NCBI GenBank assembly: GCA_021734045.1
Contig: JAIPJR010000118.1
Location: forward strand, 1-5,962
Origin: Fidelibacterota bacterium
Lineage (GTDB): Bacteria > Fidelibacterota > UBA8477
DNA length: 5,962 nucleotides
Direction of reading: 5' to 3'
Shown: in pieces, positions 2,724 through 5,879 of the stretch
How the letters are laid out: every line of letters starts with the position of its first letter
Position numbering within the stretch: position 1 is the stretch's first letter
Made by a program: the position numbers and the translations under genes
The notes under the pieces: model-generated
What the model saw: only the letters and a program-made list of their open reading frames with translations
What the model was told of the DNA's origin: nothing
Databases searched by the model: none

Positions 2724-3842
2724 ATGGCTAAATATCGGATTGCATGGCTCCCCGGTGACGGCGTGGGAAATGAGGTCATGGAAGCAGCCCGCATTGTGCT
2801 GGACAAAATCAATTTTGATGCTGAATATGTCCATGGTGACATTGGCTGGGAAATCTGGAAGACCGAAGGTGATGCCCTGCCCCAGCGCACCATTGAGATG
2901 ATGAAAACCTGCGACGCCGGTCTCTTCGGCGCCATTACCTCAAAACCCAAAGAGGAGGCTGAAAAAGAACTGGTACCCGATCTGCAGGACAAGGGGTTGG
3001 TTTATTTCTCACCCATTGTACGGATGCGACAGGAATTCAATCTCCACACAAACCTGCGTCCCTGCAAAGCCTATCCGGGTAATCCCCTGAACTTCAAGGA
3101 GGGGATTGATATCGCCATTTTCCGTGAAAATACGGAAGGCATGTATGGCGGCGTGGAATTCTTCCCCCTGCCCCAGGATGTCTACGATGCTCTGGACCGC
3201 AACCATCCCAAAATGAAGAAATTCAAGGACAAGGGCCTGGAAAATATCGCCATGTCCACCCGGATTATGACCAAACAGGGTTGCGCCAGTATCATTACCC
3301 AGGGATTTGAGTACGCGAAAAAATTCGGGAAAAAAGCTGTCACCGTAGTAGATAAACCCAATGTTCTGCGGGAAACGGGTGGTCTGATGATTCGCACTGC
3401 CCGTGAGATCGCCAAAAACTATCCTGGCATTGAATTGTGGGAAACCAACATTGATGCCCAGTGTATGTGGCTGGTGAAAAATCCCCAGGATTACGAAATT
3501 CTGGTAGCGGAAAACATGTTCGGGGACATTCTCTCCGACCTGGCTGCCCAGCTTATCGGCGGATTGGGGTTTGCCTGCGCCGGGAATATCGGTGATGGAT
3601 TTGCCGTTTTTGAACCTACTCACGGTTCAGCGCCCAAATATTTTGGCCAGTATAAAGTCAATCCCATCGCCACCCTGCTGGCGGCTAAAATGATGCTGGA
3701 ATGGCTGGGTGAGCTGGAAAAAGCCGAAAAAATCGAGAGCGCCATTTCTGCCGTCATCAGCGAAGGAACCGTCCGCACCTATGACATGGGCGGAAGCAAC
3801 ACCACGCTGGAGATGGCGGAAGCCGTGGCGGGGAAGGTTTAG
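2724..3842 (+). CDS. Isocitrate/isopropylmalate dehydrogenase family protein
   Basis: A 372-residue cytoplasmic beta-decarboxylating dehydrogenase, full length for the family. It should oxidise and decarboxylate a 2-hydroxy-3-carboxy acid with NAD(P) and a divalent metal. AAGGAG (2711-2716) lies 7 bases before the ATG. Visible motifs are GDGVGNEV (11-18), SPIVRMRQEFNLHTNLRP (96-113) with substrate-carboxylate arginines R102 and R112, ENTEGMYGG (135-143), K211 in VDKPNVLRE, D244, GDILSDL (267-273) with metal-ligand aspartates, and HGSAPKYFG (300-308). The Lys-Tyr pair (305-306) matches the NADP determinants of E. coli isocitrate dehydrogenase rather than the Asp-Ile typical of NAD enzymes. In contrast, I98-V99 stand where isopropylmalate dehydrogenase has its hydrophobic leucines. 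Substrate assignment (isocitrate, isopropylmalate, homoisocitrate or a relative) is therefore open. Likely cotranscribed with the MmgE/PrpD gene downstream. Confidence 0.93.
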   Translation: MAKYRIAWLPGDGVGNEVMEAARIVLDKINFDAEYVHGDIGWEIWKTEGDALPQRTIEMMKTCDAGLFGAITSKPKEEAEKELVPDLQDKGLVYFSPIVRMRQEFNLHTNLRPCKAYPGNPLNFKEGIDIAIFRENTEGMYGGVEFFPLPQDVYDALDRNHPKMKKFKDKGLENIAMSTRIMTKQGCASIITQGFEYAKKFGKKAVTVVDKPNVLRETGGLMIRTAREIAKNYPGIELWETNIDAQCMWLVKNPQDYEILVAENMFGDILSDLAAQLIGGLGFACAGNIGDGFAVFEPTHGSAPKYFGQYKVNPIATLLAAKMMLEWLGELEKAEKIESAISAVISEGTVRTYDMGGSNTTLEMAEAVAGKV

Positions 3843-3854
3843 AAGAAGTAGAAA

Positions 3855-3894
3855 ATGGGATAAGTAGTCAGTAGTGAGTAGTTAGGGGAAATCG
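3855..3894 (+). repeat. GTAGT-rich repeat, left copy 1
   Basis: A 40-base unit that matches copy 2 (3975-4014) at 37 of 40 positions and includes an exact 19-base core GTAGTCAGTAGTGAGTAGT (3864-3882). The two copies are offset by exactly 120 bases, but the sequence between and around them is not duplicated. Its part 3863-3888 is also an imperfect inverted repeat (23 of 26) of 4368-4393 beyond the S23 gene. It starts 12 bases after the dehydrogenase stop codon. Confidence 0.85.
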
Positions 3895-3974
3895 AGGTTG
3901 GTATCACACTTTCTGGACTTGTGGTCGTTTCAAAATACCTCCAAATTACCACCTCAATTGCAATACACACGGAC

Positions 3975-4014
3975 ATGGGATTGGTAGTCAGTAGTGAGTA
4001 GTCAGGGGAAATCG
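3975..4014 (+). repeat. GTAGT-rich repeat, left copy 2, containing the S23 start codon
   Basis: Near-identical direct copy of 3855-3894, differing at 3982, 3983 and 4003. The GTG start of the S23 ORF (3994-3996) lies inside its shared 19-base core, so the first residues of the protein are written by repeat sequence. A nine-codon frame from ATG 3975 to TAG 3999-4001 overlaps that start in another frame; whether it is translated or couples initiation is unknown. Confidence 0.85.
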
Positions 4015-4374
4015 GGATCTGCGCAGTCGTTCCGGGATTTACTGGTTTGGCAAAAAGCTCATGAATTTGTTCTGACGGTCTACAAAATGACAGAGCAATT
4101 CCCAGAGTCAGAGAAGTATGGTCTGACGAGCCAGATTAGGCGTTCTGCTATTTCGATTCCCGCGAATATTGCCGAAGGGTTTAAGAAACAGGGCAAACTG
4201 GATAAAATTCGGTTCTATAACATCAGCCAGGGATCCCTTGAGGAGTGTAAGTACTATCTGATTCTTGCTCACGATCTTCAGTATTTTGACACCACGGAAT
4301 CAAAGGAGGCATTGGATGAAATAGGACGGCTGCTATCGGGTTTAATTCGTTCAATTCGCCACCGAACCCCCTAA
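3994..4374 (+). CDS. S23 / four helix bundle protein (23S rRNA intervening-sequence type)
   Basis: A 126-residue protein of the S23 family. Hallmarks are FRDLLVWQKAHEF (13-25), the highly conserved YGLTSQIRRSAISIPANIAEG (42-62), and SQGSLEECKYYLILA (78-92). Predominantly helical, with length normal for the family. Related four-helix bundles include the accessory Avd protein of diversity-generating retroelements; the family's own function is not settled, with a proposed link to RNA or nucleic acid binding. The start is GTG at 3994. An in-frame stop (3985-3987) closes the frame upstream, and no ATG, GTG or TTG follows before residue 32, which is beyond the first conserved motif. No good Shine-Dalgarno site is seen. 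The TAA stop (4372-4374) falls in the inverted repeat. Start and stop within repeats suggest that gene and repeats form one unit. No reverse transcriptase or variable repeat accompanies it here. Confidence 0.85.
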   Translation: MSSQGKSGSAQSFRDLLVWQKAHEFVLTVYKMTEQFPESEKYGLTSQIRRSAISIPANIAEGFKKQGKLDKIRFYNISQGSLEECKYYLILAHDLQYFDTTESKEALDEIGRLLSGLIRSIRHRTP

Positions 4375-4404
4375 CTACTCCCTACTATCTACTCCCTACT
4401 ATTC
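4367..4404 (-). repeat. Right-hand inverted copy of the GTAGT-rich repeat with 14-bp tandem units
   Basis: The reverse complement of 4368-4393 matches left copy 1 (3863-3888) at 23 of 26 positions, including an exact GAGTAGTTAGGGG stretch, and matches left copy 2 at 21 of 26. The segment also holds two perfect tandem copies of CTACTCCCTACTAT (4375-4388 and 4389-4402). The S23 stop codon lies inside it. Confidence 0.85.
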
Positions 4405-4433
4405 CAATGACAAAAAAACAACAAGGAACCCAA

Positions 4434-5879
4434 ATGACACCTACAAACGATAAAAGCCTCTCCCGAATAATCTCCGAATTTGCCGTCAATTTGAAATACA
4501 ACGTGCTGCCGGCTGAGGTGGTGCACGAGGTAAAACGCTACCTCTACGACTCCATCGGGTGTGCCTACGGCGGCTATCACACCAAAGATGTGAATATCCT
4601 GCGAGACATTTATACCGAAATGGGCGGGAAAGATGAAGCCACGCTCATGGCATTTGGGGATAAAATGCCTGCTGTGAACGCCACACTGGTGAACGCCCTC
4701 ATGGTCCGGGCACTTGATTTTAATGACATTTACTGGAAAGAAGACCCTTCCCACCCTTCCGATCTCATTCCAGCCGCATTAACCGTGGGCGAATTGGTGA
4801 ACGCCTCCATGGAAGAGGTGATTGTGGCCATTGTACTGGCTTATGAGTTTGAACAACGCATGTGCCTGTTTGCCAAACCGGGTGTCCGCGAGCGGAAATG
4901 GCATCACGCTACCCTGACCCAGTTCGTTTCACCCATCGTGGCCGGCAAACTATTGGGTCTTACAGTGGACCAAATGGTGAACGCCATCGGCATTAACGGC
5001 AGCCATAACCACACCATTGGATGCCCCACTGCCGGCAAACTCACCATGATGAAAAACACAGTCGATCCAATGGCCGTTCAATCGGGTGTTTTTGCCGCCC
5101 TCATGGCCCAAAAAGGCTATTCCGGTACGGAGAAGGTTTTTGAGGGCAAAGAGGGTTTCATGGATGCCTTTATCGGTTGGGATGCCAAGGCGGAAGTGGT
5201 CAAACCTACCGGCATGGAAGGTCGCGACGGCATTTCGACCTGGTCCTGGGATGTGGATGCGCTGGTGGGTGGTTTAGGTGAAAGCTGGAAGATTCTGGAA
5301 TGTGGCATGAAAGCATTTCCCACCGAAGCCCTGACCCACACCCATATTTCCTGCGCTCTGGAGGTGATGGTGAATAATAACCTGGATTATTCAGATATTC
5401 AGGAAGTAAAGGTGACTGCTTTTGCCCAGGCTTATGACATTCTATTTGATCCGGCAAAATATCGCCCGGAGAGCCGCGAGACGGCGGATCACTCACTGCC
5501 CTATTGCCTGGCTGTGGCCATTGTTGACAAAAAAATCACCACCCAATCCTTCTCTGATGAAAAACTCAATGATCCGGCGATTTTGGAGGTCATTGACAAA
5601 ATCAAGGGAGAACCCTCGCTGGAATTCGAAAAGATGTTTCCCGCCAAACAACCGTCAAAAGTGGTTGTAACCACCAAAGATGGAAGACAATACGAGGCGT
5701 ACCTGGAATATCCCAAAGGTCATCCCAATGAGCCCATGACCATCGAGGATATTGAGAACAAGTTCAATGGATTGTCAGCCGAAGTTCTGACACCTGAGCG
5801 TCAGGCGGAAATCAAAGCCATGATTTTTGACGCGGAGAAATTTTCCGCCCGGGACTTCATGGCCAAACTGGTGGTTTAA
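4434..5879 (+). CDS. MmgE/PrpD family protein (2-methylcitrate dehydratase-like fold)
   Basis: A 481-residue cytoplasmic enzyme of the MmgE/PrpD family, which includes 2-methylcitrate dehydratase, cis-aconitate decarboxylase and iminodisuccinate epimerase. I chose ATG 4434 because AAGGAA (4423-4428) stands 5 bases before it. An in-frame ATG at 4407 lacks such a site and directly follows the repeat. Family motifs with this start are ALDFNDIYWKEDPSHPSD (93-110) including D95 and H107, WHHAT (156-160), MMKNTVDP (205-212) with K207, K293 in GMKAFPTEALTH, RETADHSLPYCLAVA (348-362), and YPKGHPNEP (426-434). These cover the His and Lys positions discussed as catalytic in the cis-aconitate decarboxylase branch, so the enzyme looks intact. 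Length is normal. It probably shares a transcript with the dehydrogenase 591 bases upstream, now interrupted by the S23 element. The exact substrate cannot be assigned. Confidence 0.93.
   Translation: MTPTNDKSLSRIISEFAVNLKYNVLPAEVVHEVKRYLYDSIGCAYGGYHTKDVNILRDIYTEMGGKDEATLMAFGDKMPAVNATLVNALMVRALDFNDIYWKEDPSHPSDLIPAALTVGELVNASMEEVIVAIVLAYEFEQRMCLFAKPGVRERKWHHATLTQFVSPIVAGKLLGLTVDQMVNAIGINGSHNHTIGCPTAGKLTMMKNTVDPMAVQSGVFAALMAQKGYSGTEKVFEGKEGFMDAFIGWDAKAEVVKPTGMEGRDGISTWSWDVDALVGGLGESWKILECGMKAFPTEALTHTHISCALEVMVNNNLDYSDIQEVKVTAFAQAYDILFDPAKYRPESRETADHSLPYCLAVAIVDKKITTQSFSDEKLNDPAILEVIDKIKGEPSLEFEKMFPAKQPSKVVVTTKDGRQYEAYLEYPKGHPNEPMTIEDIENKFNGLSAEVLTPERQAEIKAMIFDAEKFSARDFMAKLVV

Follow-up and report, generated by a model that had tools for sequence, protein, structure and literature searches.

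How did a gene for S23, the protein encoded in 23S rRNA intervening sequences, come to lie between complementary repeats in a metabolic operon, and what kind of unit do gene and repeats form together? The window analysed here, which comprises the whole of a 5962-bp contig (C102) from a genome of 2.54 Mb in 119 contigs, raises this question between a dehydrogenase gene (idh) and a gene of the MmgE/PrpD family. In the openly accessible literature, S23 appears either in the context of rRNA or as a protein without known role, and we found no S23 elements outside rRNA. The first-pass annotation took the locus for an S23 ORF with paired ends that had been inserted into an operon, and this view is borne out by empty sites, by similar ends elsewhere and by the replacement of the unit in a sister species (G002). 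We consider it likely that the unit is a minimal mobile element whose heptamer ends are recognised by its own S23 protein.

Organisation of the S23 unit

The element starts directly 3' of the dehydrogenase stop codon and is organised as follows.

2724–3842, plus strand: upstream host gene, isocitrate/isopropylmalate-type dehydrogenase (idh; PF00180)
3855–3894, plus strand: outer left end, GTAGTCA heptamer array; its arm 3863–3888 pairs with the right arm at 23/26 positions
3895–3974, no strand: spacer of 80 nt that separates the two left-arm copies, lacking similarity to the S23 5' region
3975–4014, plus strand: inner left end, where the heptamer array recurs with 93% identity to 3855–3894; 3984–4008 pairs with the right arm at 21/25 positions
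3994–4374, plus strand: S23 protein of 126 aa (23S rRNA-intervening-sequence protein, four-helix bundle) with a GTG start; the HMM match begins at 4033
4368–4400, minus strand: right end, heptamer array in inverted orientation, complementary to the left arms and overlapping the stop codon of S23
4407–5879, plus strand: downstream host gene, MmgE/PrpD family; AAGGA at ~4420–4424 before an ATG at 4434

Profile searches identified the encoded protein as S23 (PF05635, E 5.9e-39, 133 bits at a cut-off of 33.8; TIGR02436, E 2.5e-37, 127 bits at a cut-off of 24), a family in which structures of relatives have been solved (2gsc, 2rld). The complementarity reported for the outer arms (3863–3888 and 4368–4393) was recovered at the same 23 of 26 positions, and the TAA stop codon (4372–4374) indeed lies inside the right arm. 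The ribosome-binding site of the next gene likewise falls outside this arm, as originally described; its AAGGA is conserved in G002, and the true start of the MmgE/PrpD gene is likely the ATG at 4434, just outside the element. The GTG start does lie within a repeat, as the first-pass annotation had it, although this repeat is the inner left copy, located 120 bp downstream of the outer one, from which it had not been distinguished. The spacer between the two copies was considered as a possible S23 remnant and rejected, because its score against the S23 5' region (12) did not exceed that of shuffled sequences (13.3). Between the element ends, an ORF and profile search of the window revealed only S23 and no transposase gene; no transposase or recombinase motif was recognised in S23 itself, and a scan of the window for RNA families (Rfam) and tRNAs returned none. 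Elsewhere in the window, the minus strand contains a 653-aa ORF (419–2380) with a signal-like N-terminus and no Pfam or NCBIfam match.

Paired heptamer ends at S23 loci

To quantify the pairing, the left flank of each gene was scored against the reverse-complemented right flank. The window reached an arm score of 37, whereas control ORFs handled likewise had a median of 17–18 and a 95th percentile of 23–25. The median was 33.5 for 36 S23 loci of the phylum, compared with 18 when flanks were swapped between loci, and 35 for 80 S23 loci from some 20 other phyla, compared with 18 for control ORFs on the same contigs. Among all 116 S23 loci, 75–76% attained a score of at least 27, as opposed to 1.6–3.6% of control ORFs. 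The repeat period was 7 in 67 and 8 in 11 of 82 arms, and the left arms consisted of 70% purines; a general rule of stop-free left arms was tried and rejected (41% of left versus 25% of right arms). Elements of this type are scattered through the operons of many bacterial groups.

The window's own genome harbours four further S23 genes (one truncated) on contigs C60 and C74. With host genes named from their translations rather than by profile search, C60 contains three of them in the row cysD-S23-cysNC-S23-...-S23, and C74 contains one between neuB and kdsC. By eye, these genes have their own tandem repeats with a complement on the opposite side (GGATTG.., AGGTTCA.., GGAACAG.., GAGGAAA..), which gives five different ends for the five S23 units of this genome. 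GTAGT arrays were found in it only at the window's S23 gene, in both left copies, and we therefore abandoned the notion of one shared repeat in favour of clade-specific repeats. As to the proposed check whether S23 ORFs at unrelated sites carry the same terminal repeats, the kind of end is shared but the GTAGT motif is not. At the cysD-cysNC locus (L009, 2800–8600), which contains three S23 units, the right arm of the first unit continues in frame into CysN, to which it adds an N-terminal repeat extension, and the third unit is interrupted by an IS200-type transposase gene. Several cyanobacterial genomes (those of L139, L146, L147, L172 and L190) contain dozens to more than 100 solo GGAGTCA arrays each.

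Covariation of repeats and protein

The heptamer differs from one S23 clade to the next. In the 80-locus set, which was picked only by S23 similarity to the window (57–65% identity), CAGRANNCAGRA, representing the heptamer family CAG[AG]A-N2, occurs in both flanks of 41 loci, across phyla. It was seen on the wrong strand in only 1 of these 80 window-subtype loci. Among the 36 own-phylum loci, which mostly belong to other S23 subtypes, none has it in both flanks. The GTAGTCA repeat of the window is a variant of this family. For pairs of loci from different phyla, arm similarity correlated with S23 identity (Spearman 0.61; none of 999 Mantel permutations reached this value). It was at a background value of 13 where protein identity was under 50%, and increased to 16, 20 and 26.5 at 50–60, 60–70 and 70–80%, respectively. 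Because synonymous sites are saturated at such protein distances, the repeats must be under constraint. Joint inheritance could account for part of this covariation, yet the covariation persists where synonymous sites are saturated, and recognition of the heptamers by S23 would be the simplest reading of the constraint. S23 itself evolves under purifying selection (dN/dS ~0.1–0.2). Its invariant or near-invariant residues in 116 sequences are Q, R, S, N and E along one face of a helix and S and E on another, as placed by their spacing, a pattern that is compatible with binding or catalysis.

Empty sites, target duplications and replacement

Comparisons between the genomes of relatives, which reveal both copies at unrelated sites and empty sites, the latter on chromosomes as well as plasmids, indicate that S23 units are mobile DNA. 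Anabaena catenula contains two units at unrelated sites that are 97% identical over ~450 nt, with the identity stopping within the repeats. At one of these sites, A. lutea is empty and its flanks are 98% identical; it reads ..GTCATTAAAAGTCAAAATAAC.., and the occupied site of A. catenula reads ..GTCATTAAAAGTCA, followed by the element (GGAGTCA..S23..GAATTCTTA) and CATTAAAAGTCAAAATAAC... Here, 12 bases are repeated; one possible reading is that CATTA was duplicated (5 bp) and that the other 7 bases are shared with the start of the element. Clean 5-bp target duplications were seen at two sites only, namely plasmid site A (GTAAT; occupied in Trichormus and Scytonema versus empty in Aulosira and Nostoc linckia, 97% identity) and plasmid site B of Nostoc (TTCTA); at sites C, D, E and G, none was legible. 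The empty gaps measure 13 nt at site A, 3 nt at B, 12 nt at C (cmr2-cmr3) and 2 nt at D. At site F, in Dolichospermum, another repeat element takes the place of S23. Within the window's order, G007, G004 and G011 have an S23 unit between cysD and cysN, whereas this site is empty in G016 and G017. The first-pass annotation had allowed for mobility, and S23 units are indeed mobile, although at the DNA level and with target duplication, which differs from what had been stated. As side observations, S23 units also reside inside CRISPR operons (L308, L325), at cmr2-cmr3 in Picosynechococcus PCC 7003 and cas6-cas4 in Anabaena sp. 90, and the cas6-cas4 junction of Dolichospermum (L327, 900–1175) contains, in place of S23, another insert with inverted repeats, GTAGGTTGGGTT..AACCCAACCTAC.

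At the idh-mmgE locus, S23 is present in all three genomes of the window's genus. G001 retains GTAGT-type repeats. In G002, the closest relative, idh is 97% identical at the protein level (dS 0.33, dN 0.013), whereas S23 shows only 64% identity with saturated synonymous sites (pS 0.82, dN 0.32) and is flanked by different repeats (AGAAGTAGAAAAG..). The low dS of idh, combined with the saturated S23 and the different repeats, implies that the element was replaced in G002 since the two lineages split. The proposed search for an empty site at this locus was rewarded in other genera; the three genomes of the genus itself revealed this replacement and no empty site. Members of the sister family either have GxxExxY genes in this gap, again flanked by inverted repeats of their own, or show a nearly empty gap (L051, L054), and in another family it is empty (L063); the idh-mmgE gap is an insertion hot spot. 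In two further genomes, from another family of the phylum (L061, L062), inspection by eye revealed a VapBC-like toxin-antitoxin pair in this position.

The GxxExxY units are a second element of the same build. Their genes (TIGR04256, PD-(D/E)XK) occupy the idh-mmgE gap in L050, L052, L053 and L055–L058 and occur at further loci (L068–L097), with inverted repeats that largely form one family (ACCACAGAGNNCACAGAG, CACGGATTNCAC). The arm score was reached by 45% of GxxExxY loci versus 8% of a small number of controls. The gap of L051 lacks a gene but contains a short hairpin whose ends are of the GxxExxY type; this hairpin resembles an element minus its cargo.

Orientation within host operons

S23 units are inserted at the stop/start junctions of operons. 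Among loci of the window's subtype, the left arm frequently continues into ..GAATAAATG.., where the stop codon adjoins the S23 start. Considering the 105 loci with both neighbours nearby, the two neighbours were codirectional with S23 in 89 (85%) and antisense, i.e. codirectional with each other and opposite to S23, in 3 (p 5e-23). Control ORFs had codirectional neighbours in only 62% of cases (53/86; p 4e-4). This sense bias could be explained either by selection on a gene that depends on read-through or by an orientation-specific insertion step.

Discussion

Taken together, these results lead us to propose a mobile element of ~450–550 bp in which a single, apparently promoterless S23 gene is framed by inverted arrays of 7-nt repeats. 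The element would insert at stop/start junctions of transcribed operons, almost exclusively in the sense orientation and with a target duplication of ~5 bp, so that S23 may be expressed by read-through from the host operon. S23, probably as an oligomer, would recognise the heptamer ends and act as the specificity factor of mobility, with catalysis provided either by S23 or by a host enzyme. By analogy with rRNA intervening sequences, the arms in the read-through mRNA may additionally form a stem that can be cleaved by RNase III.

Several known systems share part of this organisation. Like the 23S rRNA intervening sequences of Coxiella and Leptospira, the S23 elements encode S23 (PF05635) in a unit of ~430–550 nt with complementary ends and a sporadic distribution; unlike them, they reside in protein-coding operons, have ends composed of 7-nt tandem arrays specific to the S23 clade, and display target duplications and empty sites. 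The STRR repeats of cyanobacteria are tandem degenerate heptamers, many of them solo arrays and some able to fold into hairpins. The S23 arrays share the tandem heptamers but differ in flanking a gene and in being mobile together with it; to our knowledge, STRR repeats have not been recognised as ends of S23 elements, and the solo GGAGTCA arrays are possibly remains or seeds of such elements. S23 also shares a distant homology and the four-helix-bundle fold with Avd of diversity-generating retroelements, whereas S23 loci lack a reverse transcriptase, template and variable repeat, and the window's protein scored 44 bits against the Avd equivalog, below the cut-off of 80. MITEs and other non-autonomous elements are similarly short, with inverted ends, a target duplication and no recognisable transposase, but in S23 elements the ends track the encoded protein, the orientation is one-sided and the protein is conserved under purifying selection.

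The first-pass annotation suggested that the stem could be processed in mRNA and thereby uncouple expression of the two host genes. In this vein, the arms could instead be selected as an RNase III-cut stem in mRNA that spares or uncouples the host genes, mobility being secondary. We regard this explanation as possible but doubtful. In Coxiella, an rRNA intervening sequence with an S23 gene and a terminal stem of 28 bp is cut out by RNase III in vitro (PMC4990558). The arms of the window's unit pair in the predicted RNA fold, and the strong sense orientation within operons also fits a function in RNA. However, neither the window nor any of the 20 related loci scanned lies in an rRNA gene, the fold of the whole unit has a z-score of only -1.08, and the identity of the heptamers is conserved across phyla beyond the needs of pairing alone. 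Moreover, non-Watson-Crick positions are unbiased (86 sense G:U versus 72 antisense-type, p 0.30); given this lack of sense G:U enrichment, RNA processing is possible but not supported.

A stronger version of our proposal, which we consider rather improbable, holds that S23 is itself a recombinase, with a four-helix bundle unlike known transposases, that recognises the heptamer arrays of its clade and directs the sense-oriented insertion of the gene encoding it at junctions within operons. In that case, the seven near-invariant polar residues would form the active site.

It is unlikely that S23 is mere cargo (e.g. antitoxin-like or for defence) in a MITE-like unit whose movement depends on an unrelated transposase acting in trans. 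Target duplications of 5 bp are typical of DDE transposases, one of the units described above is interrupted by an IS200-type gene, and S23, GxxExxY genes and a VapBC-like pair share the idh-mmgE gap in relatives. Yet the ends change with the clade of S23, in hosts that span many phyla, and a single genome combines five units with five different ends. Moreover, single-strand Y1 (IS200) transposition generates no target duplication.

The involvement of a reverse transcriptase in trans, with S23 acting like the related protein Avd, appears very unlikely. S23 scores against bAvd and DivGenRetAVD, albeit below both cut-offs, and the orientation bias would fit an RNA intermediate. However, most genomes of the phylum that contain S23 lack reverse transcriptase (RVT_1 in 33/149 versus S23 in 106/149 genomes), which is also absent from the matches listed for the single-contig genome G036, which has 16 S23 genes. 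It is disfavoured for the window's genus in particular, as RVT_1 was not found in G000, G001 or G002 (82–92% complete). Finally, although heptamer arrays are slippage-prone and often solitary in cyanobacteria, an ordinary intergenic gene with repeats arisen by chance or slippage is hardly conceivable in light of the controls and the unrelated-site copies, and is refuted by the empty sites.

Despite their wide distribution, S23 genes carry no annotation beyond 'four helix bundle protein'. If S23 is a specificity protein, a whole class of mobile DNA would have been misread as unknown genes and unexplained heptamer repeats, and the question of where rRNA intervening sequences originate would be answered. 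S23 elements would then also represent an overlooked disruptor in the evolution of operons, including those for CRISPR, cysDN and idh-mmgE. The match between repeats and protein makes the binding of S23 to its cognate ends directly testable.
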